From an uncultured Clostridia bacterium (lineage in GTDB: Bacteria > Bacillota > Clostridia > Oscillospirales > Ruminococcaceae), in NCBI GenBank assembly GCA_947625125.1, contig CANQNF010000030.1:1-33703 (forward strand): DNA of 33,703 nucleotides, given 5' to 3'. Both the position numbers and the translations under genes were made by a program. Each line of letters starts with the position of its first letter. The first letter of the stretch is position 1. The notes beneath the pieces were generated by a model. The model saw only the letters and a program-made list of their open reading frames with translations. It was not told where the DNA came from and ran no database searches. Below are positions 10,503-28,824 of this stretch, piece after piece.

Positions 10503-10504
10503 GA
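10499..10504. repeat. Left attachment junction (attL), shared core TAATGA
   Basis: TAATGA occurs here and at 28819-28824. Left of it the sequence is recombinase (FVPFRNLFN); right of it the homology is lost. The core ends in GA, the dinucleotide at which TnpX of Tn4451 and TndX of Tn5397 cross over. The exact crossover within the six bases cannot be fixed from one sequence. Confidence 0.85.
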
Positions 10505-10511
10505 CAAATAC

Positions 10512-10525
10512 TCATAAAGCATGAC
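10512..10525 (+). repeat. Left terminal inverted repeat
   Basis: TCATAAAGCATGAC, matching the reverse complement of 28796-28809 (TCATAAAGAATGAC) at 13 of 14 bases. It lies 7 bases inside the TAATGA core and is a likely recombinase-binding arm. Confidence 0.7.
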
Positions 10526-10555
10526 AACATTTAGTGCACACAATCAGAAATCCAA

Positions 10556-10592
10556 AACCGCCCTTTCCTGTGCTGTGCAGGAATGGGCGGTT
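10556..10592. terminator. Strong hairpin near the left end of the element
   Basis: AACCGCCCTTTCCTG pairs with CAGGAATGGGCGGTT (14 of 15) around a 7-base loop. The 3' side lacks a clear U run (TTATATTACA), so termination is likely but not certain. It could shield the cargo genes from outside transcription. Between 10505 and 10725 no gene is visible apart from this hairpin. Confidence 0.55.
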
Positions 10593-10712
10593 ATATTACA
10601 TAATAAATAACAGAAAACCGTCTAAACACTAACAGACAGATCGTCGCACAACGGCTATGTAACTTTGCTGCCCTGAATCATTCAAAATTAAGCCCCATTT
10701 TCTCTGAATTTT

Positions 10713-10754
10713 ACTTAATTTCGCCTTGAAATTCAGCTGATTTTTTGGTATAAT
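10713..10754 (+). promoter_or_regulatory. Promoter of the DUF5060 glycosidase with ACTTAATTT operator-like site
   Basis: TTGAAA (10726-10731), 17-base spacer, perfect TATAAT (10749-10754). ACTTAATTT (10713-10721) lies just upstream and is repeated in other promoters of the cluster. With TTGAAATT it forms a loose inverted repeat (ACTTAATTTC-4-TTGAAATT). Candidate target of the LacI regulator at 13884-14897. Confidence 0.75.
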
Positions 10755-10779
10755 CATAAAAAACTTTGGAGGTCGCGCC

Positions 10780-12282
10780 ATGAAATATACCAAATCTGTT
10801 GAAAAATGGGGATTATTTGAGCTAAGCTGCGAGGGATTTTCGGATAATAATCCTTTCGTGGATTATCGCATTACCGCGACATTTGAGGGCGAGCATGAGA
10901 GCAAGACCGTCGCGGGATTTTACGACGGTGGCGGGGTTTATAAAGTGCGGTTCATGCCGTCGCATGAGGGCACTTACCGCTTCACCGTTTCGGGAGATTT
11001 CTCGGGCGAGAGCTATTCCGGGGAGTTTTCGGTGACCGCTCCGTCAGCCGGAAACTACGGCCCTGTGCGGGTTTGCAACACCTATCACTTTGCCTACGCC
11101 GACGGCACGCCCTACTATCCGATCGGCACGACCTGCTACGTCTGGGAGCTGCAATCCGACGAGCTAATCGCCCAAACGTTTGAAACACTTAAAAACTCGC
11201 CGTTCAACAAGATCCGCTTCTGCGTTTTCCCGAAGAGCTACTGCTACAATTCCCGCGAGCCGAGGTCATACCCATACGAGGGAACTCCCGTCGACGGAAG
11301 CCTTGTGAACGAGGACAACGTCTGGGGCTTCGGACCCGATTCTGAGGGCAATAATTGGGACTTTTCACGCTTCAATCCCGAGCATTTCCGGCATATTGAA
11401 AAATGCATTTTGGAGCTTCAAAGACTTGGCATTGAGGCGGATATAATCCTCTTCCACCCCTACGATCGCTGGGGATTTTCGAATATGACTCCCGAGCAGA
11501 ACGCCCATTATCTTAGATATGTTGCCGCAAGATTTTCGGCCTACCGAAACGTCTGGTGGTCGTTTGCGAACGAGTACGATTTCATAAAGAGCAAGACCGT
11601 TGACGATTGGGAGCGCCTCGCGGAGGTAATTGTTGAAAACGACCCATATAATCACCTCCGTTCGATTCACAACGGCGTTAAGTTTTACGACCACGCCCGC
11701 CCGTGGATCACGCATTGCAGCGTCCAGCGCACGCCCGAGGGCACGGCGGACTGGCGCAGGCAGTACGGCAAGCCGGTCGTCCTCGACGAAATGCAGTACG
11801 AGGGCAATATTCAGTACGCCTGGGGCAACATCTCGGCGCAGGAGCTTGTCAAACGCCACTGGGAGGCTCTCTGCCGCGGCGGCTACGGCGGGCATGGCGA
11901 AACATACGTCGGCGAAAATCTTTGGTGGGCGCACGGCGGAAAGCTTAAGGGCGAAAGCCCCGCAAGAATAGCCTTTATGAGGAAAGTTCTTGAGGACGCC
12001 CCCGCAGGAGGCTTGAAGCCGAAAAACATGGAGTGGGACGAGCTTTGTGTTGTGCCGGAGGACGAGAAGCTCGAAAAAGAGAGCGGCTATCACCTCTTTT
12101 ATTACGGTATCAACCGCCCGTCATTCAGGTGGTACCATATCGACGACGAAAACACATACTCGGCCGAGGTCATCGACACCTGGAACATGACCGTCACAAA
12201 GCTCGGCGAATTTAAGGGACGTTTCAGAATAGACCTCCCGGGCAGAGAATACATGGCGGTTAGGGTGAGAAAATACGACTAA
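10780..12282 (+). CDS. DUF5060 / apiosidase-like (DUF4038) / DUF5605 family glycoside hydrolase, cytoplasmic
   Basis: 500 residues with no signal peptide, so probably intracellular. Residues 1-90 form an immunoglobulin-like DUF5060 domain (FSDNNPFVDYRITATFEGE). A TIM-barrel domain of the apiosidase-like class starts at FAYADGTPYYPIGTTCYVWE (near 104-123). The barrel motifs KIRFCVFPK and DIILFHPYDRWGF are visible. Candidate catalytic glutamates are E265 in WWSFANEYD and E337 in VVLDEMQYEG, the acid/base and nucleophile positions of clan GH-A. A C-terminal DUF5605-like strand domain follows. GGAGGT precedes ATG. It has its own sigma-A promoter and probably releases a sugar from imported oligosaccharides. 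Substrate unknown; the apiosidase-like fold and the nearby isomerase, kinase and transketolase make apiose or another pentose worth testing. Confidence 0.82.
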   Translation: MKYTKSVEKWGLFELSCEGFSDNNPFVDYRITATFEGEHESKTVAGFYDGGGVYKVRFMPSHEGTYRFTVSGDFSGESYSGEFSVTAPSAGNYGPVRVCNTYHFAYADGTPYYPIGTTCYVWELQSDELIAQTFETLKNSPFNKIRFCVFPKSYCYNSREPRSYPYEGTPVDGSLVNEDNVWGFGPDSEGNNWDFSRFNPEHFRHIEKCILELQRLGIEADIILFHPYDRWGFSNMTPEQNAHYLRYVAARFSAYRNVWWSFANEYDFIKSKTVDDWERLAEVIVENDPYNHLRSIHNGVKFYDHARPWITHCSVQRTPEGTADWRRQYGKPVVLDEMQYEGNIQYAWGNISAQELVKRHWEALCRGGYGGHGETYVGENLWWAHGGKLKGESPARIAFMRKVLEDAPAGGLKPKNMEWDELCVVPEDEKLEKESGYHLFYYGINRPSFRWYHIDDENTYSAEVIDTWNMTVTKLGEFKGRFRIDLPGREYMAVRVRKYD

Positions 12283-12288
12283 TTGCCT

Positions 12289-12362
12289 ACTTAATTTAGC
12301 TTAACACTCGCTTAAAAATCACTAAATTTCTTATTGCCATTCAGTCCTTCCGATGATATAAT
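12289..12362 (+). promoter_or_regulatory. Promoter of the sugar-binding lipoprotein, with ACTTAATTT site upstream
   Basis: TTGCCA (12334-12339), 17-base spacer, TATAAT (12357-12362). ACTTAATTT lies at 12289-12297, about 37 bases ahead of the -35 box, the same 9-mer as before the DUF5060 gene. Confidence 0.7.
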
Positions 12363-12405
12363 CTGTAAAAACAAGGCTTATTTCATCGAGAAAGGACTGT
12401 TTTTT

Positions 12406-13845
12406 ATGAAAAGAATTATTGCAATTTTTCTGGCGGCACTGATGATAATCGCGCTTGTCGGCTGCGGAAAGCAGAAGCGAAAAATAATCGAGCTGACCCT
12501 TTCTACAGAGGATTCGGCGGCGATTTTGGCGGCAGCGGGGATAAAACTGCCCGACAAGGAGAACACACCTGCGGCAGGCTCGGTCATCAAATACTTCAGC
12601 TGGGGCGACTTCGTCCACAACTATTCCGACGACGAGATCATTCAAACCGGCTTCTGGACCTTTAAAAACAAGTACGACTGCGAAGTCGAGTGGGTCGAAT
12701 GCACATGGGCTGACCGCTTTACATCACTTGCAAACCAAGTGCTTTCGGGCGATTCCCCCGACTTCTACGACGGCTACGCGGAGTCCTTCCCGAAGTATTA
12801 TCTTTCGGGTGTTTTCCAAGCGGTCGATGATTATGTTGACTACAACGACCCGCTCTGGTCAGGGGTCAAGGACTTTGCCGATAAGTATTTTTCACTCGGC
12901 GGCAGGCACTATATGTTCGTCACCGACGCCACTTTTAACAACGTATGCGCATACAACCGCCGCGTTATAAACGAATGGGGATTTGACGACCCGGCAGAGC
13001 TTTTCTATAATGACGAATGGACGTGGGAGAAATTCTACGAAATGTGCCTCGATTTCAGCGACTACGATGAGGACAGGTTTGCGATTGACGGTTGGGGCGC
13101 AAGCGGAGCGTTTCTGACATCATGCGGTACTATGATGGTGACTTTGGACCCCGAAAGCGCAAAATTTGTTTCAAATATTGACGATCCGAGGCTGGAGCGT
13201 GCGGCGGGATATTTATATGATTTAAACAAAAATCAATGCACATATCCGATGTGGGAGCGCAACTGGTCGACAAGAAACGGCGGCGCCGAGGGTGCCGGAA
13301 TAGCCGAGGGGCTCTGCCTGTTCTGGCTTCGCGGTACATGGACATTTACGGGACCTGTTGATGAAATTTCGCCGGTTTGGGGAGATGTCGCAAACGGCGA
13401 GCTGATGTTCTGCCCGATACCGAGAGATGAAAACGGCGACGGAAACTACTATGTTGACACCAAGCCGTCCGGTTTCAGTCTGATCGTCGGCGCGCAAAAT
13501 CCCGAGGGAGTGGCTCTGTATGCGGCCTGCTGCCGATTCAAAACAATCGACCCGACTGTTATCGACATCGACAGAAAGCAGCTCAAGGAGGTCTATCTCT
13601 GGACAGACGAGATGCTTGAAATGTATGACACGATGTATGAGCTGGCAGGGTCGTATAACACCGTTATCGACTATGAATACGGGCTCGGCGACGTTGCGAA
13701 CGTGATCGGCGACTGCACGCAGATAAGTCTTGCGCAGAATCCGACGACATGGGCGCAGGTAAAGGAGGCGAACAAGGACAGGATCGACGCTTATCTTGAC
13801 GAACTCAACTCGCAGATACAGGAATTTGTATCAGGCGAGAATTGA
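12406..13845 (+). CDS. Extracellular sugar-binding lipoprotein of an ABC transporter
   Basis: 479 residues. The N-terminus is a lipoprotein signal: MKR, a hydrophobic run, then lipobox ALVGC with Cys20 as the lipid anchor. The mature part matches family 1 extracellular solute-binding proteins: VIKYFSWGDF, WTFKNKYDCEVEWVECTWADRFTSLANQVLSGDSPDFYDG, then a C-terminal lobe rich in Trp and Tyr. It should sit on the outer face of the membrane and deliver a sugar to an ABC permease. No permease or ATPase genes are in the window, so it must pair with proteins coded elsewhere. ATG at 12406 was chosen because it gives the signal peptide and follows AAAGGA at suitable spacing. It has its own promoter and terminator. 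Confidence 0.88.
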   Translation: MKRIIAIFLAALMIIALVGCGKQKRKIIELTLSTEDSAAILAAAGIKLPDKENTPAAGSVIKYFSWGDFVHNYSDDEIIQTGFWTFKNKYDCEVEWVECTWADRFTSLANQVLSGDSPDFYDGYAESFPKYYLSGVFQAVDDYVDYNDPLWSGVKDFADKYFSLGGRHYMFVTDATFNNVCAYNRRVINEWGFDDPAELFYNDEWTWEKFYEMCLDFSDYDEDRFAIDGWGASGAFLTSCGTMMVTLDPESAKFVSNIDDPRLERAAGYLYDLNKNQCTYPMWERNWSTRNGGAEGAGIAEGLCLFWLRGTWTFTGPVDEISPVWGDVANGELMFCPIPRDENGDGNYYVDTKPSGFSLIVGAQNPEGVALYAACCRFKTIDPTVIDIDRKQLKEVYLWTDEMLEMYDTMYELAGSYNTVIDYEYGLGDVANVIGDCTQISLAQNPTTWAQVKEANKDRIDAYLDELNSQIQEFVSGEN

Positions 13846-13858
13846 TCTCCATAAAGAA

Positions 13859-13882
13859 GAATCCCCTTTTTCGGGGATTTTT
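13859..13882. terminator. Terminator between the convergent binding-protein and lacI genes
   Basis: AATCCCC-TTTTT-CGGGGATT hairpin followed by a T-rich run (TTTCTC). It can serve the plus-strand gene; A-rich sequence on the other side (AAAGAAG) gives partial U-run function for lacI. Confidence 0.85.
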
Positions 13883-13883
13883 C

Positions 13884-14897
13884 TCATTTTATAACCGATT
13901 TTCGTTTAACAAGCTTAGTTGAAACCTCAATTTTTAAGGGACATGCTCCCTTGTCCTCAATTATCTGCGCAAGCCTCTCAACCGCGGTTTTCCCGAGATA
14001 ATCTTTAGGAACATTAACCGTCGAAAGCGGCGGGTTGAGATAGGTGCAAAACGGCATATCGTCGAAGCCGATTATCGACACGTCCTCGGGAACGCGATAG
14101 CCCTTTTCGAGCAGCGCTTTCATCGCACCGGCGGCGATGTTGTCATTGTCCGCAAAGTAGCCTGCGACGGGCTTTTCGCCCTGCTCAAGAAAGTCGAGCA
14201 TATCGCGGTAAGCACCGTCCAAAGAGGGGGTCAGGCGAATGACAGGCGAGCGTGATGCGCTCAGCCCCGCGGCTCGAACCGCGCTGAAAAATCCGTCGGC
14301 GCGCTCATCGAAATTGCCGATCCGGTAGGACGATTTCAGATAACCCGGCTGACCTTTAATGCGCTTTATCAGGTGCTCGGTGGCAGTGAACGCGCCCTGA
14401 AAATTGTTGATGATAACGCAGTCGTACGGTAACGCGTGAAAGTATGTGTCAAGAACGACAATCGGTGCTTTGATTCGCTCAAACGGCGTAAAATCAGAGC
14501 TTTTCATCTCAGTGCCGAGCAGGATTATGCCGTCGTAAATCGGTAAAGAGTCGATCTGCTTTCCAATCTCGCCATCGTCGTAAAGGTAGCTGATGTGCAG
14601 GCGATATTTTAGAGCCTTACATGCGCTCTCGATGCCCTCTGTTAGCTGGTTGAAAAACGGCGTGTCCGCGACTATCGCACCGTGTTTTTTGTAGATTACA
14701 AAGGTGATGTTACCGCGGGACGAGCCGCTCGAAGTCTTTTCGGCGATCCGTGAAAAGTCGTATCCATGGGCTTTTGCGGCCTCAATTACCCGATTTTTTG
14801 TAGCAGTGCTGACCCCGGGTTTTCCGTTGAGAGCCATCGAAACCGCCGCCTCCGAAATTCCTAAAAGCTTGGCTAATTCCTTGGAAGTTATTGACAT
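13884..14897 (-). CDS. LacI-family transcriptional regulator
   Basis: 337 residues. The N-terminal helix-turn-helix is typical (ITSKELAKLLGISEAAVSMALNGKPGVSTATKNRVIEAAKAHGYDF), with the hinge helix region near residue 50-60. The rest is a periplasmic-binding-protein-like effector domain: ITFVIYKKHG, YDGIILLGTEM, VAGYFADNDNIAAGAMKALLEKGYRVPEDVSIIGFDDMPFCTYLNPPLSTV. It probably binds a sugar or sugar phosphate from this pathway and controls the neighbouring operons. It is divergent from the isomerase operon, and its promoter overlaps an AATTAAGT element. Similar ACTTAATT elements precede the DUF5060 gene, the binding protein and the isomerase. Regulation by this protein is inferred, the family is certain. 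Confidence 0.93.
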   Translation of the reverse strand: MSITSKELAKLLGISEAAVSMALNGKPGVSTATKNRVIEAAKAHGYDFSRIAEKTSSGSSRGNITFVIYKKHGAIVADTPFFNQLTEGIESACKALKYRLHISYLYDDGEIGKQIDSLPIYDGIILLGTEMKSSDFTPFERIKAPIVVLDTYFHALPYDCVIINNFQGAFTATEHLIKRIKGQPGYLKSSYRIGNFDERADGFFSAVRAAGLSASRSPVIRLTPSLDGAYRDMLDFLEQGEKPVAGYFADNDNIAAGAMKALLEKGYRVPEDVSIIGFDDMPFCTYLNPPLSTVNVPKDYLGKTAVERLAQIIEDKGACPLKIEVSTKLVKRKSVIK

Positions 14898-14919
14898 ATA
14901 ATCGCCCCTTTCCGAAATT

Positions 14920-14948
14920 ATTATATACCGCGAGGTGAATTAAGTCAA
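14920..14948 (-). promoter_or_regulatory. lacI promoter with overlapping operator-like motif
   Basis: On the minus strand: TTGACT (14943-14948), 17-base spacer, TATAAT (14920-14925). The motif ACTTAATT (14938-14945, minus) overlaps the -35 box, consistent with autoregulation. Confidence 0.75.
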
Positions 14949-14977
14949 GAATTTTTTGAAAAATACTGAATTATTTG

Positions 14978-15006
14978 TTGAAATTAAGTTTGACTTTAAG
15001 TAAAAT
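14978..15006 (+). promoter_or_regulatory. Promoter of the isomerase-transketolase-kinase operon with operator-like site
   Basis: TTGAAA (14978-14983), 17-base spacer, TAAAAT (15001-15006). AAATTAAGT (14981-14989) overlaps the -35 box, and a second similar half ACTTTAAGT (14993-15001) runs to the -10 box. It lies back to back with the lacI promoter. Confidence 0.75.
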
Positions 15007-15028
15007 TTATTTGGAAAGGGTGATGCGA

Positions 15029-16426
15029 ATGGTAAAAATAGGCTTTGCTCCGACAAGGCGAAGTATTTTCTCTGCTCCCGACGCGCTGAGATACTCGGGG
15101 CTTATAAAATCCTGCATGAATGATCTCGGAATTGATTTCGTCGGAATAGACGACATCGCTTCCGACGGGCTTTTGCACGACGATGAGGACAGAAAGCGGA
15201 TCGCGGAAAAGTTCAAAAATGAAAGGGTTGACGGTCTTTTTGTGCCGCACTGCAACTTCGGCACCGAGTACGAGGTCGCGCGTCTGGCGAAGGATTTAGG
15301 TGTTCCGATCCTGCTCTGGGGGCCGCAGGACGAAGCCCCCGACGAAAACGGTGTACGCCTCCGCGATACCCAATGCGGGCTTTTCGCGACGGGAAAGGTG
15401 CTGCGGCGGTTTAACCTGCCGTTTACATATCTTCCGAACTGCCGCCTCACGGACCCTGAATTTGAGGTCGGAATGAGGAATTTTCTGCGCGTCTGCTCGG
15501 CGGTCAGGACGTTTCGGAACATCAGGATTTTGCAGATCGGCCCACGTCCGTTTGACTTTTGGTCGACGATATGCAACGAGGGCGAGCTGCTTGAAAAATT
15601 CAATATCCAGCTTTCGCCGATCCCGCTGCCCGAGCTTATAAAAGAGGTCGAAGCCGCGAAAGCCGAGGGAATCGCCGTCAGAAAAACAATGGAGTTTTGC
15701 CGCGAGAATTTTAATATTGCAATCAGCGACAATGAGCTTGAAACCGTCTGCGCACTAAAAGTGGCGATACAAAATTTGGCAGAAAAATACGGCTGCAACG
15801 CGGCGGCGATACAGTGTTGGAACGCTCTTCAGAGTGAGCTCGGCATAATGCCCTGCGCGGCAAATGCGCTTTTGAACGACGAGGGCTTCCCGGTCGCATG
15901 CGAAACGGACATTCACGGCGCGATCACATCTTTGCTTGTTGAGGCGGCGGACATGGGCGAGCACCGCAGCTTTTTCGCCGACTGGACTATACGCCACCCA
16001 TCAGACGACAACGCCGAGCTTTTGCAGCACTGCGGGCCGTGGCCGCTGTCGGTCGCATCGGAAAAGCCGACGATAGGCTATCCTCTGGCGTTTGATTTTC
16101 CCGGAGCGGTCAGCGCAAAAGCAAAGGATGGCAGTCTGACCATTGCCCGATTCGACGGCGATCACGGAAAATATTCCCTGCTTATAGGGAACGCAGAGAC
16201 GACCGACGGGCCTTATACAAAGGGCACATATCTTTGGTGCAGGGTCAAAAATTGGGAAAAGCTTGAAAGCAAGCTCGTCGAGGGACCGTATATCCACCAC
16301 TGTGTCGGAATTCATGCCGACGTGCTGCCGGTGCTTTATGAAGCCTGCAAATATATAGGCGTCGAAGCTGATTTATTTGACGCGAATGAGGACGAAGCAA
16401 GGTCGAGATTTTGGGGCAAAGTATGA
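15029..16426 (+). CDS. L-fucose/L-arabinose isomerase-family sugar isomerase
   Basis: 465 residues. Members of this family interconvert aldoses and ketoses using a metal ion. Visible features: N-terminal Rossmann-like region (KIGFAPTRRSIFS; VDGLFVPHCNFGTEYEVARLAKDLGVPILLWGP), middle domain (IRILQIGPRPFDFWSTICNEGELLEKFNIQ), and the C-terminal metal-site segment PVACETDIHGAIT with E292 and D294, plus the late histidines in PYIHHCVGIH. ATG at 15029 is chosen because GGAAAGGG lies 8 bases before it; ATG at 15023 is too close. It is the first gene of an operon with a split transketolase and an FGGY kinase, so its ketose product is probably phosphorylated and passed to transketolase. Substrate not determined: L-arabinose, D-arabinose, L-fucose-like sugars, or another pentose. 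Confidence 0.85.
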   Translation: MVKIGFAPTRRSIFSAPDALRYSGLIKSCMNDLGIDFVGIDDIASDGLLHDDEDRKRIAEKFKNERVDGLFVPHCNFGTEYEVARLAKDLGVPILLWGPQDEAPDENGVRLRDTQCGLFATGKVLRRFNLPFTYLPNCRLTDPEFEVGMRNFLRVCSAVRTFRNIRILQIGPRPFDFWSTICNEGELLEKFNIQLSPIPLPELIKEVEAAKAEGIAVRKTMEFCRENFNIAISDNELETVCALKVAIQNLAEKYGCNAAAIQCWNALQSELGIMPCAANALLNDEGFPVACETDIHGAITSLLVEAADMGEHRSFFADWTIRHPSDDNAELLQHCGPWPLSVASEKPTIGYPLAFDFPGAVSAKAKDGSLTIARFDGDHGKYSLLIGNAETTDGPYTKGTYLWCRVKNWEKLESKLVEGPYIHHCVGIHADVLPVLYEACKYIGVEADLFDANEDEARSRFWGKV

Positions 16427-17250
16427 ATTATAATGCGTTTTCGTATGACTTAAGAAAAGACGTCGCGGATATGATATATTCCGGCAAGGGCGGTCATATC
16501 GGCGGCGACATGAGCGTTATGGAAATATTAGTAACGCTTTATTTTCGGGTGATGAATATCTCGCCCGATAATTTCGGGTCAACGGATCATGACAGATTTA
16601 TTCTCAGCAAGGGGCATTGCATAGAGGCTCTTTACGCGGTTTTGGCGGCAAAGGGATTTTTCCCGATCGATGAGGTCAAAAAGAATTATCTCAGATTTGG
16701 AACGGAATTTATCGGGCATCCGAACGTAAAAATTCCGGGGATAGAAATTAACGGCGGCTCGCTCGGGCATGGGCTTTCGGTCGCGGTCGGAATGGCTCTT
16801 GCCGCGAAGATGAACGGTAGCGGCAGCCGCGTATATGTTGTCATGGGCGACGGAGAGCTTGCAGAGGGTCAGGTCTGGGAGGCTGCTATGGCGGCAAGTC
16901 ATTATCACCTTGACAATCTCTGCGCAGTGATAGACCGCAACCGCCTGCAAATATCGGGCAGCACCGAGGAGGTAATGCACCAGGAAAATATAGCCCGGCG
17001 CTGGTCGTCGTTCGGCTGGAGAGTGATAGATGTTGAAAACGGAAACGATTCCGACAGCCTTTATAGGGCGTTTATGAGAGCGAAGAATAACAGGTTCAGA
17101 CCGACGGTGATCATCGCCGAAACTGTCAAGGGATATGGTTCAAAAATTATGGAAAACAAAGCCGACTGGCACCACCGCGTCCCGACGGAAAAGGAATACC
17201 GCGAGATGATAAGCGAGTTTCAAAAAAGAAAAGAGGCGTGCTGGGAATGA
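16423..17250 (+). CDS. Transketolase, N-terminal (thiamine-diphosphate-binding) subunit
   Basis: 275 residues, the N-terminal half of a transketolase as found in two-gene transketolases of many bacteria. Visible features: KGGHIGGDMSVMEIL, the HDRFILSKGHCIEALYAVLA block, GGSLGHGLSVAVGMALA, and the thiamine-diphosphate/Mg motif GDGELAEGQVWEAAMAA beginning near 142 and ending in DRNRLQ near 171-176. The ATG at 16423 overlaps the isomerase stop as ATGA. The next gene is the C-terminal half. Together they should move a two-carbon unit between sugar phosphates, linking the pathway to the pentose phosphate pool. A split transketolase beside an isomerase and kinase is also the layout of known D-apulose-4-phosphate transketolase operons; specificity here is unproven. 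Confidence 0.92.
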   Translation: MNYNAFSYDLRKDVADMIYSGKGGHIGGDMSVMEILVTLYFRVMNISPDNFGSTDHDRFILSKGHCIEALYAVLAAKGFFPIDEVKKNYLRFGTEFIGHPNVKIPGIEINGGSLGHGLSVAVGMALAAKMNGSGSRVYVVMGDGELAEGQVWEAAMAASHYHLDNLCAVIDRNRLQISGSTEEVMHQENIARRWSSFGWRVIDVENGNDSDSLYRAFMRAKNNRFRPTVIIAETVKGYGSKIMENKADWHHRVPTEKEYREMISEFQKRKEACWE

Positions 17251-18182
17251 ACATGACGGCTGACCGAGCTGTAATATGCAAAACGCTTATAGAGCGCGCC
17301 AAAACCGACCGCGATATTGTGGTGCTCTGTTCCGATTCAAGAGGGAGCGCATCTATGTCTGCGTTCGCGGAGAGCTTTCCCGAGCAGTTTATTGAGGTCG
17401 GAATTGCCGAGCAGAATCTTGTCGGCATTGCGGCAGGACTTGCAAAATGCGGCAAAAAGCCGTTTGTCTGCTCGCCTGCATGCTTTTTGTCAGCGCGAAG
17501 CTATGAGCAGATAAAAATCGACTGCGCCTATTCGGGGACAAACGTCAAGCTTGTCGGCATAAGCGGCGGCGTTAGCTACGGGGCGCTCGGAATGAGCCAT
17601 CACTCCCTTTCGGACATTGCCGCCATATCCGCGATCCCCGGTATAAAGATATATCTTCCGAGCGATCGCTTTGAAACGGAATTTCTGACAAATTTTCTTT
17701 TGGAAGATACGGCTCCCGCATATATCAGGATAGGGAGAAATCCTGTGCCGGATATTTACAGCGCAGGTTATAAATTTGAAAAGGATAAAGCTGTCAAACT
17801 GAAGTCTGGCAGCGACATCGCGATAATCGTCTGCGGTGAAACGGTAAAACCGGCTTACGACGCCGCAAATCTTTTGGAGCGGGAGGGAATAAGCGCGGCG
17901 GTTTTGGATATGTACTGCTTAAAGCCGCTTGATGAAAAATCGCTCATTGAAACCGCTTCGGGCGTTAAGGCGGTGGTCACGGTCGAGGAGCATTCCCCTT
18001 ACGGAGGGCTCGGGTCAATGGTTTCGGCGGTGCTGTCAAAAAGCTGCCCGAAAAAGGTATTGAGCTTATCCCTGCCCGATTCGCCTGTAATATCCGGCAG
18101 CTCGGCCGAGATTTTCAGATATTACGGTCTTGACGCCGAGGGCATCAAAGCAAGCATTATAAGGCTTTTGGAGGAGCTATGA
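17247..18182 (+). CDS. Transketolase, C-terminal (pyrimidine-binding) subunit
   Basis: 311 residues. It starts in an ATGA overlap with the previous gene (GTG at 17238 is a less likely start). The pyrimidine-binding domain shows IVVLCSDSRGSASMSAFAESFPEQFIEVGIAEQNLVGIAAGLAKCGKKPFVCSPACFLSARSYEQIK, where the Glu of GIAEQN activates thiamine diphosphate. The C-terminal domain follows (GSDIAIIVCGETVKPAYDAANLLEREGISAAVLDMYCLKPLDEKSL; VTVEEHSPYGGLGS). It pairs with the N-terminal subunit at 16423-17250. The last bases overlap the kinase gene as ATGA, so all four genes are tightly coupled. Confidence 0.93.
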   Translation: MNMTADRAVICKTLIERAKTDRDIVVLCSDSRGSASMSAFAESFPEQFIEVGIAEQNLVGIAAGLAKCGKKPFVCSPACFLSARSYEQIKIDCAYSGTNVKLVGISGGVSYGALGMSHHSLSDIAAISAIPGIKIYLPSDRFETEFLTNFLLEDTAPAYIRIGRNPVPDIYSAGYKFEKDKAVKLKSGSDIAIIVCGETVKPAYDAANLLEREGISAAVLDMYCLKPLDEKSLIETASGVKAVVTVEEHSPYGGLGSMVSAVLSKSCPKKVLSLSLPDSPVISGSSAEIFRYYGLDAEGIKASIIRLLEEL

Positions 18183-19648
18183 AAAGCGTTCTGGCAATAG
18201 ATCAGTCCACTCAGGGCACAAAGGGAATCCTGTTAAACGACCGTGCGGAAATAGTCGCAAAGGCGTATTTGCCGCACCGCCAGATAATCACCCCAAAAGG
18301 GTACATTTCCCACGATCCGAACGAGATATATAAAAACGTATTGGGAGTTGCCGCAAAGCTTTTGAGCGAATGCCCGAGCGCCGAAATAGCCGCAGTAGGA
18401 ATCTCAAATCAGCGGGAAACGACCGCAGCATGGGACGGAGCCACCAATGAACCTGTCACGGACGCCATAGTGTGGCACTGTTCAAGAGCAGGAAAAATCT
18501 GCGACAGCCTCACCCAAGACGAAAGAAAGCTCATTTTAAGCTCCACGGGGCTGCCCGCCTCGCCGTTTTTCCCTGCGGCAAAGGCGGCATGGATACTTGA
18601 ACACGTCCCGAGGGCAAGGGAGCTTGCCGATAAAGACCGCCTTAAATTCGGAACGGTCGATTCATGGCTGATCTATAGGCTTTGCGGCGAGCATCTTTGT
18701 GATGTTTCAAACGCTTCGCGAACGCAGCTTATGAACCTATCGTCGCTTAGGTGGGACGAAAATATCCTGAAAATTTTCGGGATAACGCCCGAAATGCTGC
18801 CGAAAATCCTCCCCTCGGACGGCAATTTCGGCATGACGGATTTTTGCGGGCTCTTAAAGCATAAAGCGCCGATTTTGGCGGTCATGGGCGATTCTCACTC
18901 GGCGCTTTTTGCACACCGATGCGAAAACCCGGGGCAACTGAAAATCACATACGGCACCGGCTCATCGGTGATGATGAACACCGGCAGCAGGATAATCAGG
19001 TCAGAAAACGGACTTGCAAGCTCGGTCGCCTGGGGCTTCGGCGGGAAGATTTTCTACGTCTTGGAGGGCAACATCAACTACTCGGGCGAGGTAGTTACAT
19101 GGCTCAAAGACAGTCTGAAATTGATAAATTCTCCTGCCGAAACCGAGGCTTTGGCAGAAGACGCGAACATTTCGGACAGGACTTGTCTTGTTCCCGCGTT
19201 CAGCGGTCTCGGGGCGCCTTATTGGTCGGAAAATTCGCGCGCGGCGATAATCGGAATGTCGCGATTGACGGGCAAGGCGGAGATAGTCCGGGCGGCTTTA
19301 AGCTCGATTTGTCTTCAGATAAACGACGTTTTAGAGGCGATGAAGAGGGATTCGGGGCTTGATATGGGCATAGCTTACGCTGATGGCGGACCGACCGAAA
19401 ATCGCTATTTAATGCAGCTTCAAAGCGATCTGTCACAAATTGAGATAAAAGTTTCGGAAGAAAACGAGCTTTCCGCGCTCGGCGTTGGCTTCATGGCGGG
19501 AATAAGGGCAGGACTGTTTTCCGATGATGCGGCATTTGGGAAGCGTGGGTACCGTTCGTTTACCCCGAAAATGTCGGACGGAGAAAGGAAAACTTGCCTT
19601 TCGGACTGGAAACGCGCAGTCGAAGCGGTTACAAAAGGGTCGATATAA
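18179..19648 (+). CDS. FGGY-family carbohydrate kinase (pentulose/glycerol kinase-like)
   Basis: 489 residues. FGGY kinases phosphorylate ketoses or polyols with ATP. Visible features: AIDQSTQGTKGILL at the N-terminus (phosphate 1 motif), GISNQRETTAAWD (77-86), IVWHCSRAGKICD, FGTVDSWLIYRL (158-168), catalytic Asp in VMGDSHSALFAH (D238), ATP-binding TYGTGSSV (257-264), and GLGAPYWSENSRAAIIGM, followed by the adenosine-site segment AYADGGPTENRYLMQLQSD. It resembles glycerol kinase in some motifs, but the operon with isomerase and transketolase points to a ketopentose. It overlaps the transketolase stop (ATGA). It is the last gene of this operon; a new promoter follows. Confidence 0.9.
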   Translation: MKSVLAIDQSTQGTKGILLNDRAEIVAKAYLPHRQIITPKGYISHDPNEIYKNVLGVAAKLLSECPSAEIAAVGISNQRETTAAWDGATNEPVTDAIVWHCSRAGKICDSLTQDERKLILSSTGLPASPFFPAAKAAWILEHVPRARELADKDRLKFGTVDSWLIYRLCGEHLCDVSNASRTQLMNLSSLRWDENILKIFGITPEMLPKILPSDGNFGMTDFCGLLKHKAPILAVMGDSHSALFAHRCENPGQLKITYGTGSSVMMNTGSRIIRSENGLASSVAWGFGGKIFYVLEGNINYSGEVVTWLKDSLKLINSPAETEALAEDANISDRTCLVPAFSGLGAPYWSENSRAAIIGMSRLTGKAEIVRAALSSICLQINDVLEAMKRDSGLDMGIAYADGGPTENRYLMQLQSDLSQIEIKVSEENELSALGVGFMAGIRAGLFSDDAAFGKRGYRSFTPKMSDGERKTCLSDWKRAVEAVTKGSI

Positions 19649-23754: not shown

Positions 23755-23880
23755 TCGTGGCACACGACCTTGCAGGCAAGGTCTAGTGTGTTATACCTTT
23801 TGCTGTTGACTTTCCTGAGAAAAGGTTTTTATGTATATACAGCCCCAGAAAAATAGGGACGGGCAAAAAGCAAAAGGTAT
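23755..23880 (+). other. oriT: Probable MobV oriT with pMV158-like nick sequence
   Basis: The stem CACACGACCTTGC-AGG-CAAGGTCTAGTGTG (23761-23790) is followed at once by TTATAC. TAGTGTG/TTATAC (23784-23796) equals the nick region known for pMV158-type MobV plasmids, with the cut expected between 23790 and 23791. A further long-range inverted repeat pairs ATACCTTTTGCT (23794-23805) with AGCAAAAGGTAT (23869-23880). A MobV relaxase is encoded nearby at 25220-26170. The match is read directly; the nick position rests on family knowledge. Confidence 0.8.
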
Positions 23881-23881
23881 A

Positions 23882-24688
23882 TCACCCTTCGTCCTTTTTC
23901 TCACCGTCGCTTGGTAAATCTTTCAGCAGTTCCGTTCCGAACGTCCTAACGATTTTCTGCATATTCTCGTCAATATTGCCCGATGATTTTACGACGTTCG
24001 CAATCGTCGCGCTTATCTGTTCCGGCGTGAGTTTTGCCGCGTCCTGAGGCTTAAAAGATGCCAAAATCTTCTCCAGAAATTCTTTGTTCGCTCTGTTGTC
24101 TGCATTGGCGTCAGAGTTTTTCTTTATGTCCTTGACCGCCGTTATAAATTCATATTGTATGTTAATAAGCTGCTCGGCTTTGAAATTCGGCTTGGACAAT
24201 ACGACCGCTTTCTTGACCTCTTTCGCCTTGGGATTGACTTTTCCCGCAAAATCCCGCATAGATTTTGTGAAGTCGTTCTGCCCCTCAACGATTTGTGCGA
24301 AGTAGTCACTCGTATAAAAATCAATCAACAGCAGCGCCTTAATAAAGTGCGGGTCAACGAGCAACTCGTTCAGAATACCAATCGGAATAGTACGAGAAAC
24401 GATGTTTGTCGCTGCGTTCTCGGTTAAACCCAACTCCTCCGCATCAATTATTTGGTGTCGCGGTATATCTGTCACTCCCAGCAGATAATCAGTTGAGCAA
24501 CCGAAAATCTCAGCGAGCTTGACTATCTGCTCAATGCCAAGTGTATCTGTTTTGCCAGACATGAATCGGTTGAGCGTAGCTTCAGAGATGCCTATTTCCG
24601 TTGCCAATTTAGCCTGCGACGATTTATTATCCCTAATCCAATCCGAGATTTGGTCGCGAATCGTAAATTTCAGATATTCTTTCGGCAT
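23882..24688 (-). CDS. XRE-family (Cro/CI-type) regulator of the mobilization module
   Basis: 268 residues from ATG 24688 (MPKEYLKFTIRDQISDWIRD); an ATG 18 bases upstream would add MKRTDF. The N-terminal helix-turn-helix reads KLATEIGISEATLNRFMSGKTDTLGIEQIVKLAEIFGCSTDYLLG, the lambda-repressor-like class. The long C-terminal region is helical, with two stretches of Lys/Asp/Asn-rich helix, and has no protease-type SOS motif that I can see. It is transcribed away from the MobV gene and ends next to oriT. It probably represses the mob, rep and recombinase genes; a CTTGCATATTTGCAAG palindrome (24799-24814) upstream is a candidate binding site. Confidence 0.85.
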   Translation of the reverse strand: MPKEYLKFTIRDQISDWIRDNKSSQAKLATEIGISEATLNRFMSGKTDTLGIEQIVKLAEIFGCSTDYLLGVTDIPRHQIIDAEELGLTENAATNIVSRTIPIGILNELLVDPHFIKALLLIDFYTSDYFAQIVEGQNDFTKSMRDFAGKVNPKAKEVKKAVVLSKPNFKAEQLINIQYEFITAVKDIKKNSDANADNRANKEFLEKILASFKPQDAAKLTPEQISATIANVVKSSGNIDENMQKIVRTFGTELLKDLPSDGEKKDEG

Positions 24689-24722
24689 AAAATCGGTCCT
24701 TTTCATTTGTAGTTTCACTAAC

Positions 24723-24751
24723 ATTATACACCCTGCCGCAAAGGAAATCAA
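24723..24751 (-). promoter_or_regulatory. Promoter of the XRE regulator gene
   Basis: On the minus strand: TTGATT (24746-24751), 17-base spacer, TATAAT (24723-24728). Sits 35 bases before the gene start. Confidence 0.75.
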
Positions 24752-24798
24752 TACTTTTTAGAACATTTGTTCTTAAATTTTCTTAAAATTTTGCTCTT

Positions 24799-24814
24799 GT
24801 CTTGCATATTTGCA
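24799..24814. promoter_or_regulatory. Palindrome upstream of the XRE gene, candidate operator
   Basis: CTTGCATATTTGCAAG, an inverted repeat of 6 bases around TATT, lying between the divergent XRE gene and mobilization genes. Function inferred from position. Confidence 0.35.
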
Positions 24815-24911
24815 AGATTTGAGGGCAAATTTTTTCGTTTTCCTGCGAAAATGACGGTTTTGTAAGGCTATAGACAAATCCGTGGTATCATTGATTATGG
24901 AGGTGATGCAC

Positions 24912-25158
24912 TTGATTTCTTATAGCAAAGGTCAAGCATATTAAAAATCGCGAAAATTTTAGCCGCTTTGAGAACACATTTCGCCATTCGGCGGCACGTA
25001 GAAGAGCGAAAGTAATACGACATAAAGCGTGTGTTTACGCAGCTTGCTGCAAATTCACATCAGACTGCGAAAACGACTACCCCCATCTATGGCTAACTGT
25101 TCATACCGTCAAAATGGAACGGCTGGGCTTGAAAAGAAAAATATGCTGCATAGCGTAA
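24912..25158 (+). pseudogene. Small Cys/Arg-rich reading frame before MobV, apparently frameshifted
   Basis: GGAGGTG (24899-24905) is followed 6 bases later by TTG, giving MISYSKGQAY and TAA at 24942-24944. In the next frame from 24940, about 72 codons stay open (KNRENFSRFENTFRHSAARR, then RAKVIRHKACVYAACCKF and so on, ending KRKICCIA). The two parts read like one protein of about 80 residues with a single frameshift at GCATATTAAAAA. No family is recognised. Alternatives: a short leader peptide plus chance open frame, or programmed frameshifting. Apart from this, 24815-25219 shows nothing clear. Confidence 0.35.
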
Positions 25159-25219
25159 ACAAATTGCTGTACGGCACAAGTAATTCATTAACAAGCAAAA
25201 ATAATTTTTAGGAGGTTTT

Positions 25220-26170
25220 ATGCAAAAAGCACAATACGGAATTTTGAGATTCGCAAAGTACAAAGGTCCCGAGATTGGCAACATCGAGGCGCATAACGAG
25301 CGCACGAAAGAAAAATATGCGAGCAACCCCGACGTGGACCCCTCGCGCAGTAAGTACAATTTTCATTTGATAGAACCGCAAGGTAAATACCGAGCAGCCG
25401 CCGAGAAACAAATCGCTGAGGCAGGCTGCAAGACCAGAAAGGACAGTGTTCGACTGGTAGAAGCCTTGGTAACGGCAAGCCCCGAGTTTTTCAAAGGCAA
25501 AAAACGCACTGAAGTTAAAGAGTATTTTGAATACGCGTTCAAGTTCGTTCAGTCGCACCAATCGCCCGAAACAATCGTGTCTGCGGTCGTGCATATGGAC
25601 GAAAAAACTCCGCATATGCACCTGACGTTCGTACCGCTGACGGCTGACGGTCGTTTATCTGCCAAAGAGATTATCGGCAACAAAAAGAAGCTGACATGGT
25701 GGCAGGACGAATTTTGGCGGCACATGGTCAAGAAGTATCCTGACCTTGAAAGGGGCGAGAGTGCGAGTGTAACAGGGCGAGAACATATTCCACCAAGACT
25801 TTTAAAGCAAGCGGTACACCTCAATCGTCAGCGAGATATTATATTTCAAACTCTGAAAGACATAACGCCTTTCAATGCAGGCAGGAAGTCTGCCGAAGTT
25901 GCGGAAATGATTGAAAAATACATATCAGGAGCTGAGGGTATGCGGTCTGCCCTCAAAGGCTTTGAGGGCGAAATCAAGGCTTTGCAAGCAGAGAATGCCA
26001 AGCTCGAAAAGAAGCTCGACGGCAGCAAAGAGAGTATTCAGAAACGGCTTGAAATCAATCAGAAGTTGAGCGACTATGAGGATTTGAAACGCACCGTTGA
26101 TGCGATTCCTGCTGAGATTTTGGCGGCTTATTCGACGCTAAATATGACATCAAAAGGGGTAGAGCTATGA
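25220..26170 (+). CDS. mobV: MobV-family relaxase (plasmid recombination/mobilization, MobM/Pre type)
   Basis: 316 residues, preceded by TAGGAGGTTTT. Motif 1 of the family is clear: GNIEAHNERTKEKYASNPDVDPSRSKYNF, where H25 matches the catalytic histidine described for MobM of pMV158. The KDSVRLVEALVT segment follows. The metal-binding motif is VVHMDEKTPHMHLTFVPL (H125, D127, E128, H132, H134). The C-terminal part is coiled coil (LQAENAKLEKKLDGSKESIQKRLEINQKL). It should nick the oriT at 23790/23791 and lead transfer with a helper conjugation system. It is shorter than plasmid MobM (about 490 residues), mainly at the C-terminus. It is followed by the rep region. Confidence 0.93.
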   Translation: MQKAQYGILRFAKYKGPEIGNIEAHNERTKEKYASNPDVDPSRSKYNFHLIEPQGKYRAAAEKQIAEAGCKTRKDSVRLVEALVTASPEFFKGKKRTEVKEYFEYAFKFVQSHQSPETIVSAVVHMDEKTPHMHLTFVPLTADGRLSAKEIIGNKKKLTWWQDEFWRHMVKKYPDLERGESASVTGREHIPPRLLKQAVHLNRQRDIIFQTLKDITPFNAGRKSAEVAEMIEKYISGAEGMRSALKGFEGEIKALQAENAKLEKKLDGSKESIQKRLEINQKLSDYEDLKRTVDAIPAEILAAYSTLNMTSKGVEL

Positions 26171-26345
26171 TTATCCACAACGGGAAAACCCGCCGCCGGA
26201 ATTCCAGACGGTGGATAACCTGACCGTCCGGAAGCCGCGAAAATTAACCGTCATGAAGTATGAAAATCATTCCTCCGGGCGGCTGAAATTCATACCCAAA
26301 TTAATATAAATAAAACTAATATAAATTAGTTAATATCAATCTATC
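26171..26345. other. Candidate replication origin next to rep
   Basis: TTATCCACA (26171-26179) is a perfect DnaA-box sequence, and TTATCCACC lies in opposite orientation at 26210-26218. GTATGAA and TTCATAC form an inverted repeat around 26258-26292. An AT-rich stretch follows (about 26293-26355), including the palindrome AACTAATATAAATTAGTT. The rep-like gene begins directly afterwards. This fits an origin for an element that can replicate after excision; it is inferred, not shown. Confidence 0.45.
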
Positions 26346-26380
26346 TAATACAAATTTTGATGGGATAGGAGGGATAAAAA

Positions 26381-26749
26381 ACGGCAAAAAGTCTTTTGAA
26401 AGTCACGAAAGATAGCTCCACGTTGTCCTACATACCGCTCCCGCGGTTTCTTCTTGATGAGGAAATATCAAACGACGCGAAATTGCTGTATGCCCTGCTG
26501 CTTGATAGGGCGAGCATATCTAAATTGAACGGCTTTGTTGAATCAGACGGTGCAATTAGGGTATATTTCACCGTTGAGCAGGCGCAGAAAAAGCTGTGCC
26601 GAAGTCGACAATGCACAACGAAAATTTTTCGGGAATTAGAGAACTGTGGGCTAATTAGTCGCAAAAAGCAAGGGCTCGGCAAGCCTGCGGTCATCACACT
26701 GAATTACCCCGAGAGCGCAAAGCTGATTGAACCGCAAAATACTGTATGA
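26381..26749 (+). CDS. Short RepA N-terminal-domain replication initiator-like protein
   Basis: About 122 residues if translation starts at ACG 26381, which sits 7 bases after ATAGGAGGG and gives M-AKSLLKVTKDSS. The first usual start is TTG at 26396, too far from the ribosome site. The ACG is probably a mutated ATG, so expression may be weak. The protein matches the RepA_N replication initiator pattern: SYIPLPRFLLDEEISNDAKLLYALLLDRASIS, then YFTVEQAQKKLCRSRQCTTKIFRELENCGLISRKKQGLGKP, a winged-helix fold. Plasmid members are about 250-300 residues, so this is only the N-terminal domain; such short forms also occur in integrative elements. It may act as initiator or regulator at the adjacent origin-like region. 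Confidence 0.75.
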   Translation, partial: TAKSLLKVTKDSSTLSYIPLPRFLLDEEISNDAKLLYALLLDRASISKLNGFVESDGAIRVYFTVEQAQKKLCRSRQCTTKIFRELENCGLISRKKQGLGKPAVITLNYPESAKLIEPQNTV

Positions 26750-26874
26750 AAAAGTGTCGGAAATCAGCAAAATTTTGCCCCATAAGCGACGGGAACGACG
26801 TGCGTAATGGAATATAGCAGTGAACACAAAAATGCGTTACAACGCGGGAAATTATAAAAATCAGGAGGAATTTA

Positions 26875-27090
26875 ATGAACGAAAACAAAGAAAACAATTT
26901 TGAGAATGGGAAAATGCTGCCAATCATTGATTATCAAGGCAGGAAGTTTATGTGCTTACCGAATCGGACGGAAATGACATTCCCCGACGGCACGGTTTAT
27001 CGCGTGAGCAGCACCTTTGTCGGCAAAACGGAAATGGGAGATATGCTCGACGCGCTCACTATTGAGAAAATAAATCGCGAGGTGGCTTGA
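26875..27090 (+). CDS. Small protein upstream of the recombinase (TnpW-like)
   Basis: 71 residues, preceded by TCAGGAGGAATTTA. The sequence has a strand-rich core (MLPIIDYQGRKFMCLPNRTEMTFPDGTVYRVSSTFVGKTEM) and a helical end (GDMLDALTIEKINREVA). Position directly before a large serine recombinase and the general layout fit TnpW-type proteins of Tn4451 relatives, but similarity is weak. Function unknown. Its last codons contain the recombinase promoter. Confidence 0.65.
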   Translation: MNENKENNFENGKMLPIIDYQGRKFMCLPNRTEMTFPDGTVYRVSSTFVGKTEMGDMLDALTIEKINREVA

Positions 27091-27115
27091 AATGGCGAGG
27101 AAAATATGCTACAAT
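27087..27115 (+). promoter_or_regulatory. Promoter of the intact serine recombinase
   Basis: TTGAAA (27087-27092), 17-base spacer, TACAAT (27110-27115), followed by AGGAGGT before ATG 27164. Confidence 0.7.
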
Positions 27116-27163
27116 AACAGCGGATTTCTGATTGAAAATGCGCTGCATATCAGGAGGTAAAAT

Positions 27164-28792
27164 ATGGCTATGCAGATTATAAATCAGGAAAATTACAATG
27201 TCGGAATTTACGCAAGATTAAGCCGAGATGACGAAAGAATCGGTGAGTCGGTTTCAATCGAGAATCAAAAGGAGCTGCTCGGCAGGTATGCTCGCGAACA
27301 GGGTTGGAACATCTTCGACTACTACTGTGATGACGGTGTAAGCGGCACAACATTTGACCGCCCCGAATTCAATCGGCTTGTGCAGGACGCAACGGACAAG
27401 AAAATCAACCTTGTTTTGTGTAAAGACCTTTCCCGCCTCGGGCGCGATTACATAGAGGCTGGCAGATACACGGATTTCGTCTTTCCGTCGCTCAGTTGCA
27501 GGTTTATCGCTCTTAACGACGGCGTGGATACCTTGCAGAAGAATAACGAAATGCTCGTTATAATAAAAAATGTTATGAACGACCTCTATGCTCGCGACAC
27601 AAGCTCCAAAATAAAGGCAGTTAAGCAATCTACGTTCAAGTCGGGGAAATATGTAGGCTGTTATGCGCCACTTGGCTACAAGAAAAGCGAAGCGGATAAG
27701 CATATTTTGGAAATCGACCCGATTACCGCGCCCGTGGTGCGCCATATATTCGACCTAAGACTGCAAGGCAATAGTTTCCGCAAAATCGCCGCCCAACTAA
27801 ATGCTGAAAACGTGCCAACGCCTATGGACTTCTATTATATGGCAAAGGGAACTCCGAAGCCCGCGAATCGCAGTAAAGCATGGGGCGCCGAAGCCGTCAG
27901 GCTGATTTTGAGAAATGAGGTTTACCTCGGTCACATGGTGCAGAACAAGACGGGAACGGTGTCCTACAAGAACCATAAGCAGATTGACAAACCGCAATCT
28001 GAATGGATTAAGGTTGAGAACACCCACGAACCGATTATATCTCAAGATGTCTGGGACGCGGTTCAGAAAATGGACAATCACCCCTCACGCGGCAGGACTG
28101 CAAAATGCGGTGAGATTCCTTTGTTCAGCGGCATGCTTAGGTGCATGGACTGCGGAGCAAGTTTCCGTTTCATTCGCGACTACCGCACCAAGCGAAAGCC
28201 GTCAAGTTACAAGGCGTACGCCTGCAATCGCTATATGTCAGGCGGCAAGGACGCTTGCACAGCGCACGTTATAAACCAAAAAGCGTTGATTGCCGTCGTT
28301 CTGACCGACATTCGCAGTAAAGCAATCCTCGCGCAGAGAAATCGTGAAGCTCTGAAAGAGCGGATTCTCGCCATGAAAAAGACCTCGAATGAGGAAAAGA
28401 CAAGCATGCTGAAAACCGAGTTGACAGCGATTGAAAAGCGGCTTGCCGAGCTTGAAAAGTTGATTCAAGCGGCTTATGAGGATAAGGTCATGGGTCGCAT
28501 ACCCGAGGGCGTTTGCATTAACCTGCTTAACAAATATGAATCCGAGCGTTCAGAGAAGCTTGAATGCAAAAAAGAGCTTTCTGCGAAGTTGGCGGCAAGT
28601 GAGGCTAACGAAAAGTCCGTCGATGACTGGCTCGATATGATTCAAGACTACGCCCAACTTGAAGAACTCGACCGTGCGACGCTTGTCAGACTTATCCAAA
28701 AAATTGAGATTGGTGAAAAACGCGAGGTCGATGGACACATCGAGCGCGACATCAATATCTACTACAATTTCGTGGGGGTTGTAGAATTATAA
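27164..28792 (+). CDS. Large serine recombinase (TnpX-like), integrase of the 18.3-kb element
   Basis: 542 residues, intact. The resolvase domain starts NVGIYARLSRDDERIGESVS with catalytic Ser20, and contains CDDGVSGTTFDRPEFNRLVQD and the Arg motif CKDLSRLGRDYIEAGRYTD. The recombinase domain follows (YAPLGYKKSEADKHILEIDP; FDLRLQGNSFRKIAAQLNAENVPTP), then the zinc ribbon CMDCGASFRF with YACNRYMSGGKDAC, a coiled coil (LTAIEKRLAELEKLIQAAYEDK) and a C-terminal DUF4368-like end (KREVDGHIERDINIYYNFVGVVEL). AGGAGGT precedes ATG. The stop codon is 30 bases from the right junction. It most likely inserted and excises the surrounding element, using GA-type core sites. Confidence 0.95.
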   Translation: MAMQIINQENYNVGIYARLSRDDERIGESVSIENQKELLGRYAREQGWNIFDYYCDDGVSGTTFDRPEFNRLVQDATDKKINLVLCKDLSRLGRDYIEAGRYTDFVFPSLSCRFIALNDGVDTLQKNNEMLVIIKNVMNDLYARDTSSKIKAVKQSTFKSGKYVGCYAPLGYKKSEADKHILEIDPITAPVVRHIFDLRLQGNSFRKIAAQLNAENVPTPMDFYYMAKGTPKPANRSKAWGAEAVRLILRNEVYLGHMVQNKTGTVSYKNHKQIDKPQSEWIKVENTHEPIISQDVWDAVQKMDNHPSRGRTAKCGEIPLFSGMLRCMDCGASFRFIRDYRTKRKPSSYKAYACNRYMSGGKDACTAHVINQKALIAVVLTDIRSKAILAQRNREALKERILAMKKTSNEEKTSMLKTELTAIEKRLAELEKLIQAAYEDKVMGRIPEGVCINLLNKYESERSEKLECKKELSAKLAASEANEKSVDDWLDMIQDYAQLEELDRATLVRLIQKIEIGEKREVDGHIERDINIYYNFVGVVEL

Positions 28793-28795
28793 GCA

Positions 28796-28809
28796 GTCAT
28801 TCTTTATGA
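28796..28809 (-). repeat. Right terminal inverted repeat
   Basis: GTCATTCTTTATGA, reverse complement TCATAAAGAATGAC, matching 10512-10525 at 13 of 14 bases. It lies 9 bases inside the TAATGA core, compared with 7 on the left. Confidence 0.7.
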
Positions 28810-28818
28810 AAGGGTGAC

Positions 28819-28824
28819 TAATGA
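28819..28824. repeat. Right attachment junction (attR), shared core TAATGA
   Basis: Same six bases as 10499-10504. To the right the recombinase text resumes in frame as EWLAKDTGRK. Confidence 0.85.

Follow-up and report, generated by a model that had tools for sequence, protein, structure and literature searches.

Tn4451, whose serine recombinase is TnpX, carries a Mob/Pre-type relaxase, and the Tn4451 family proper carries the genes tnpV, tnpW and tnpY. Table 1 of a 2017 review (PMC5704250) lists Tn4451 with numerous sites at GA, and the same review lists integrative mobilizable elements (IMEs) that are driven by serine recombinases and sit in rumA, Maff2, SNF2 and traG; that table has 42 entries, and no recombinase gene appears in it as a site. 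IME_Rho_tet, in the account of its sites in PMC12904643, lands mostly in MAFF2 genes. A DUF4368-rich clade of recombinases is called multi-targeting in PMC10083194 and, in the part of that paper dealing with target genes, is excluded from the enrichment. In an IME of S. suis, an erm(B) element lies within the gene for the serine integrase, and the passage on it in PMC7168690 gives a length of 1.7 kb and no excision seen.

Here we describe an 18,320-bp integrated element that splits a serine-recombinase gene in an uncultured Clostridia bacterium of the Ruminococcaceae (assembly GCA_947625125.1). It occupies positions 10502-28821 of contig CANQNF010000030.1, whose 33,703 nucleotides are the window analysed here; the draft assembly totals 3.17 Mb over 101 contigs, of which the window is C30. 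It is very probable (about 0.9) that the element is an IME with a DUF4368-bearing large serine recombinase, that it entered a TnpV-bearing element, within the recombinase gene, through a crossover at the 2 bp AA, and that its family prefers such sites.

Like Tn4451, the window element has a serine recombinase at one end, a Mob/Pre-type relaxase and a 2-bp overlap, and no conjugation genes were found among the 15 Pfam-searched open reading frames (ORFs) of 10780-28792. TnpX is also the best solved-structure match of its recombinase (2mhc, E 2.2e-27), and the enzyme is 35.6% identical to an annotated plasmid-borne TndX and 40.1% to its best plasmid match. Compared with the GA sites tabulated for Tn4451, however, the guest family, as we call the element and its relatives, uses AA in the window's clade and lands at one homologous site, in recombinase genes, in 48 of 61 cases. 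TnpV is encoded in the split host element instead, and no Pfam match of the TnpV, tnpW or tnpY type was found in the five guest backbone ORFs, the smaller ORFs having stayed outside that search. IMEs that split genes of integrative and conjugative elements (in Maff2, SNF2, traG or oriT; Tn6104; IME_Rho_tet) likewise use, as far as the cited tables and passages describe them, a conserved site in another element, most of them by a serine recombinase; the difference is that the target here is the other element's recombinase gene. The DUF4368 recombinases of PMC10083194 have the same domain make-up and, in that account, many target genes, whereas most targets of the window family are one homologous site. 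The S. suis case is likewise a mobile piece breaking an integrase gene, yet it is a single case and the passage on it does not describe a site-specific family. In the open-licence literature we found no described family targeting recombinase genes, which is weak evidence of absence; judged from the genomes compared, this appears to be an IME family of a previously known kind with a new target, a preferred landing site in the recombinase genes of other mobile elements.

The split recombinase gene and its junctions

10095..10501, + strand: target serine recombinase, first half, with the catalytic domain (hidden Markov model (HMM) E 2.1e-67, model 17-147)
10499..10504, no strand: left junction TAATGA, overlap AA at 10500-10501 (sequence and relatives)
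28819..28824, no strand: right junction TAATGA, overlap AA at 28820-28821 (sequence and relatives)
28820..29727, + strand: target serine recombinase, second half, in a decayed state (HMM E 7.7e-56, model 145-297)

The left piece of the target ends in the residues FVPFRNLFN, and the right piece restarts with N-EWLAKDTGRKVKAALHAKF, 18,320 bases further on. The same genome holds the gene in uninterrupted form. Window 10300-10504 aligns with contig C23 1324-1527 at 84% identity (92% over a shorter stretch) and window 28832-29000 with C23 1535-1703 at 80% (88% over a shorter stretch); since the gap of 7 bases on C23 corresponds to bases 28825-28831, the six bases shared by the junctions are counted once. 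Both halves lie back to back, in register and without the insertion, on contigs C23, C83, C5 and C81, the homologue on C5 being an open 542-aa gene and that on C23 having a frame change elsewhere in the gene. The insertion truncates the foreign enzyme after about 140 residues, in the window with a stop four codons further on. Judged from its reading frame, the window target is dead even apart from the split, with an in-frame TAA at 10317-10319 in the first half and, in the second, a TAG after 50 codons followed by a later frame change.

The initial annotation, made from the letters of the window, had proposed that a single element including the whole sugar locus splits a serine-recombinase gene, with TAATGA at both junctions and an intact serine recombinase beside the right one, and it had suggested aligning the joined recombinase with homologues. 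The TAATGA copies are where it placed them, the intact recombinase is the gene at 27164-28792, the alignment puts the halves adjacent and in register, and the junctions, homologues and relatives support one integrated element that takes in the sugar genes. Its length of 18,320 bp stands as well, and its placement at 10503..28822 is corrected to 10502-28821, because relatives place the 2-bp overlap at AA; the GA crossover it had borrowed from TnpX and TndX is given up for the window's clade.

Landing sites and crossover dinucleotide in the family

The survey comprised 89 places, namely the best 80 of 89 relatives from 84,980 species genomes, six relatives from viral contigs and three from the window's own genome, with recombinases 49-100% identical to that of the window; isolates such as Flintibacter muris DSM 110149, Pseudoflavonifractor sp. 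60 and Oscillibacter valericigenes Sjm18-20 are among them. Removing 15 without an own-family C-terminus at 45% identity and two with flanks under 120 bases left 72 examinable places. The end pattern recognised 61 right ends. In 48 of them the sequence beyond the end is a different serine recombinase's second half, read in frame and always entered at the same Asn codon; two more right ends that the pattern missed (L145 and L150) are non-recombinase by eye, which gives a harsher count of 48/63. The split pattern is not due to chance, since 43 of the 72 true flanks pass a strict test that was passed by a single window out of 350 drawn at random from these loci; any recombinase piece within the 700-base right flank is found in 53/72 and 20/350, respectively. 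Among other-clade recombinases of the window's genome with a downstream flank, none of eight (four of them in the array on contig C44) has a second half starting there; a ninth, on C55, reaches the contig end and stands outside the eight.

The targets are diverse. Single linkage groups the 48 into 40 at 90% identity, 30 at 70% and 6 at 50%, and an open frame of 350 codons or more survives in the second half of 34, whereas 12 stop earlier and 2 run off the contig. For 42 targets the length allowed a comparison with the window recombinase, which gave 30-41% identity, and that none exceeds 41% hints that the guests' own genes may be spared. In a tree of the family, built from 56 rows with 380 aa or more, the 38 recombinase-targeting rows occur in all large branches and show some clustering (12 changes, a value attained in 2 of 500 shuffles); nine other-target rows are scattered (9 changes) and do not form one clade, some long branches being unsure. 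The preference for recombinase genes is clade-wide.

Within the genus the recombinase is present at E <= 1e-180 in 8 of 31 genomes. The right-end pattern occurs at 12 places in 7 of these 31 genomes and runs into HMM-confirmed recombinase second halves in every case, and the left-end pattern occurs at 13 places in 9 genomes, with a recombinase first half preceding it at 8 of the 13 places. Beyond species genomes, one of the six viral-contig relatives (L197, 66%) has the family end and a recombinase flank, and the 513 matching plasmid records are all below 60% identity.

Both ends are in view in 13 elements of 4.2-18.3 kb, and a recombinase first half stands on the left in nine of them at E<1e-3. 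L141 has a left first half at E 0.016, on a stub of 52 residues; L144 occupies the same recombinase-gene site in the opposite orientation, with TT at the core; L137 and L183 have no forward recombinase half on either side. When left ends were sought with looser criteria in 14 loci, two of these, L168 and L171 (complete genome AP012044.1), proved to have first halves. At L170 and L187, and by eye at L164, all outside the 48, the recombinase end faces the first half of a recombinase encoded on the opposite strand; L198, a tandem recombinase, was left out of the counts. These three and L057 (G006:C18), 54-63% relatives, apparently use the same site in another arrangement. The guests at L137 and L146 lie in non-recombinase DNA, and their right flanks still resemble the recombinase site (GGTATGCGAAGGATATTC, GTGGTACGC), so these are possibly secondary sites.

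With TAATGA at both junctions, the window alone is compatible with GA, TGA and AA, and it is the relatives that place the overlap. At left ends the letter after AA is T in 15 of 15 found, with a pattern that allowed T or C, and in 13 of 13 of the pattern set (three shared with the 15). At right ends in recombinase targets the same letter is C in 34 and T in 14, and at right ends elsewhere it is any letter. Before AA stands T in the right ends listed, and T, C or G in left ends. AA lies exactly 10 bases from each terminal inverted repeat and is thus centred between them. Only AA is common, with the flanking letters following element or target, so the overlap is AA in the window's clade. A GA crossover is excluded there by the fixed left-end T, the variable right-end letter and the symmetry of the inverted repeats. 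The left-end pattern of the survey of whole elements requires AA and cannot reveal left ends lacking it, as the genus pattern scan could. Two matches of the latter, G019:C1:280851 and G028:C48:4623, have neither AA nor a preceding recombinase, and the former lies 6.4 kb before a right end that continues into a recombinase.

Guest backbone, host element and cargo

The guest element is made of two ends, a backbone beside the right end and a cargo bay.

10502..10597, + strand: element left end, common to the elements on C52 and C11 (similarity stops at 10596-10597)
10512..10525, + strand: left terminal inverted repeat TCATAAAGCATGAC, 10 bases from AA
23882..24751, - strand: Xre-type regulator (HTH_3 1.3e-09), part of which is also in C52
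25220..26170, + strand: MobV/Mob_Pre relaxase (Mob_Pre 4.4e-52, MobV above cut-off)
26396..26749, + strand: RepA_N-like protein (6.7e-14)
26875..27090, + strand: 71-aa ORF, retained beside the recombinase in several relatives
27164..28792, + strand: the element's own large serine recombinase (Resolvase, Recombinase, Zn_ribbon_recom and DUF4368 domains; DUF4368 2.2e-17)
28796..28809, + strand: right terminal inverted repeat GTCATTCTTTATGA, a near-inverse of TCATAAAGCATGAC, 10 bases from AA

With its own integrase gene, a specific site and a MobV relaxase, we read such guests as IMEs. A 15-nt hairpin at 10556-10592, just within the left end, is perhaps a terminator shielding the cargo from the promoter of the split gene. 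No tRNA or known RNA was found in the window, and a degenerate search for the site within it, allowing 3 mismatches, gave no match. The closest named relatives of the window recombinase come from metagenome-assembled genomes (MAGs) named Lapin, presumably from rabbit gut.

Around the guest lies the host, or outer, element.

7799-8197, + strand: NikA-like protein (Pfam NikA-like 3.9e-12)
8160-9512, + strand: MobA/VirD2-type relaxase (Pfam Relaxase 4.7e-13)
29798..30178, + strand: TnpV (Pfam TnpV 7.6e-39)

The order is NikA-like protein, relaxase, a small ORF (9761), the split recombinase gene and then TnpV, from which it follows that the split gene belongs to a TnpV-bearing, Tn4451-like element. 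Contig C52 of the same genome has the same host arrangement and the same-codon split, here by a related 8.3-kb element, and its split gene is likewise preceded by the relaxase (85%) and ORF 9761 (72%). Type I restriction-modification genes (HsdR, HsdS and HsdM domains, Pfam; window 657-7006, - strand) adjoin the host element; a further serine recombinase lies near the contig end (window 32761-33654), and C44 (L016) has several recombinases in tandem.

The cargo bay extends from the left end to the regulator, and in the window it holds sugar genes from 10659 to about 23700.

10780..12282, + strand: apiosidase-like glycoside hydrolase (DUF5060, Apiosidase, DUF5605), which we take to be GH140-like
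12334..13845, + strand: extracellular solute-binding protein (SBP_bac_8)
13884..14897, - strand: LacI-family regulator (Pfam search)
15020..16426, + strand: sugar isomerase, weakly like the fucose isomerase C-domain and sulfoquinovose isomerase, both below cut-off
16411..18182, + strand: transketolase in two parts, the N part starting at 16411/16426 and the C part at 17238/17247
18179..19648, + strand: FGGY kinase, glycerol-kinase-like (37% to AplK)
19701-20846, + strand: GH5 (Pfam search)
20839-22380, + strand: GH43 (Pfam search)
22392-23669, + strand: melibiase/GH27-like (Pfam search)

The transketolase N and C parts are 43% and 38% identical to AptA and AptB of E. coli SE15. With gene names as used for the D-apiose pathway in PMC13001218, the cargo is plausibly a plant-sugar catabolic operon, perhaps for D-apiose; the sugar is a guess, because the kinase scores higher against glycerol kinases, and the isomerase is below every cut-off. 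The same bay in the C52 element holds other genes, among them those for an NAD(P)H-binding protein, a Macro-domain protein and a SIR2-like protein (just under cut-off), so the cargo varies between elements.

The isomerase is found in 2 of 31 genus genomes at E <= 1e-60, the window's own included, and in 32 of 347 sampled family genomes at E <= 1e-80. Isomerase, both transketolase parts and kinase stand together in 11 of 12 fetched family loci (7.5-19.9 kb), L233 showing no transketolase; at E <= 1e-15 all 12 are free of hits to MobV, Xre and own-family recombinases, although a recombinase of 32% identity lies near one of them. The initial annotation had named, as an argument against an integrated element, relatives with the sugar locus at this position and no recombinase pieces. 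The relative G022 does have GH140, a partial solute-binding protein gene, LacI (94%) and the isomerase (96%) without such pieces, but at a different place, on a 5.1-kb contig where other coding DNA (flavodoxin-like by eye), and no element left end, precedes GH140. Such a locus marks the sugar genes, on these comparisons, as captured cargo and is no argument against integration at the window position.

The sugar locus could have entered separately, after the element was in place. This order of events is somewhat doubtful, though a real contender: homology to other sugar loci begins at 10659-10682, 62-85 bp past the shared left end, and C23 carries paralogous GH140, LacI and GH43 genes at 85-94% DNA identity, yet no other recombinase or transposase occurs among the ten searched cargo ORFs, where ends of an inner element were not sought. 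In either order, the sugar locus lies inside the present element ends. The compact cluster of these paralogues (G000:C23, L035/L103) is a possible source or sink of the cargo.

Competing accounts and the guest way of life

Several observations weigh against integration by AA crossover at preferred recombinase-gene sites. Of the 89 relatives that one scan yielded, the survey covered the best 80, and many of its loci are MAG contigs. The preference is not absolute, since no forward recombinase site is found at 13 of the 61 right ends, nor at L145 and L150; two of the thirteen, L144 and L162, are flanked by a recombinase piece in reverse orientation. In addition, 5 of the 13 left ends of the pattern scan have no preceding recombinase, and 2 of these, hence 2/13, have no AA. 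GA and AA are indistinguishable in the window itself, and left ends of the roughly 50% clade read AAC (L168) and AAT (L171), where GA is still possible. Neither a circular form nor an empty allele of the exact window site was seen, and the C52 element's own recombinase is broken.

An unlikely alternative is a broad multi-targeting enzyme that recognises a loose DNA motif; recombinase genes would simply match this motif most often, and the link to mobile elements would be incidental. It draws on the description of DUF4368 recombinases as multi-targeting, in the part of PMC10083194 concerned with them, and on the 13 right ends elsewhere, which share little beyond AA (required by the pattern) and T at +9 (11 of 13). 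Against it, 48 ends that share a single codon within one protein family, and that come from every large branch, are far from random, and they fall in 30 distinct targets at 70% identity and 6 at 50%.

Two further accounts are very improbable. Tandem serine recombinases exist, and several stand in a row in C44, so that the second half might be part of the element and not target DNA, but this is contradicted by the uninterrupted homologues, by first halves at the opposite end of most whole elements and by the 40 kinds of halves at the 48 right ends. Assembly joins between recombinase copies could mimic splits in fragmented drafts with high copy number (the window's own recombinase has 55 matches in its genome), but the same codon and end kind recur in isolates and in the complete genome AP012044.1, and the left and right sides of whole elements agree.

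If integration at preferred recombinase-gene sites is correct, the element's own recombinase would join a circular att site to the codons for a conserved N-x-x-N-[E/D] segment at the end of the catalytic domain, serving as attB. Related mobile elements carry recombinase genes, and attB therefore would travel with other mobile elements. Landing there need harm no cell gene; it would stop the host element's own recombinase, and the guest may gain a ride on the host element, later depending on its own MobV relaxase or the host's transfer to move. At somewhat short of even odds, we suggest a class of elements living on other mobile elements, for which the recombinase genes of rivals are portable landing sites: a rival's mobility would be silenced on landing and its recombinase restored by precise excision, a reversible switch on the vehicle.

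A single site within a mobile, diverse gene family would offer a simple reason why some recombinases look multi-targeting, and the 48 natural site variants could serve as a specificity data set for a recombinase family. The finding would also describe, in gut bacteria and with defined att sites, an element-on-element parasitism directed against a rival's means of moving, by an element that carries what is plausibly a plant-sugar operon.

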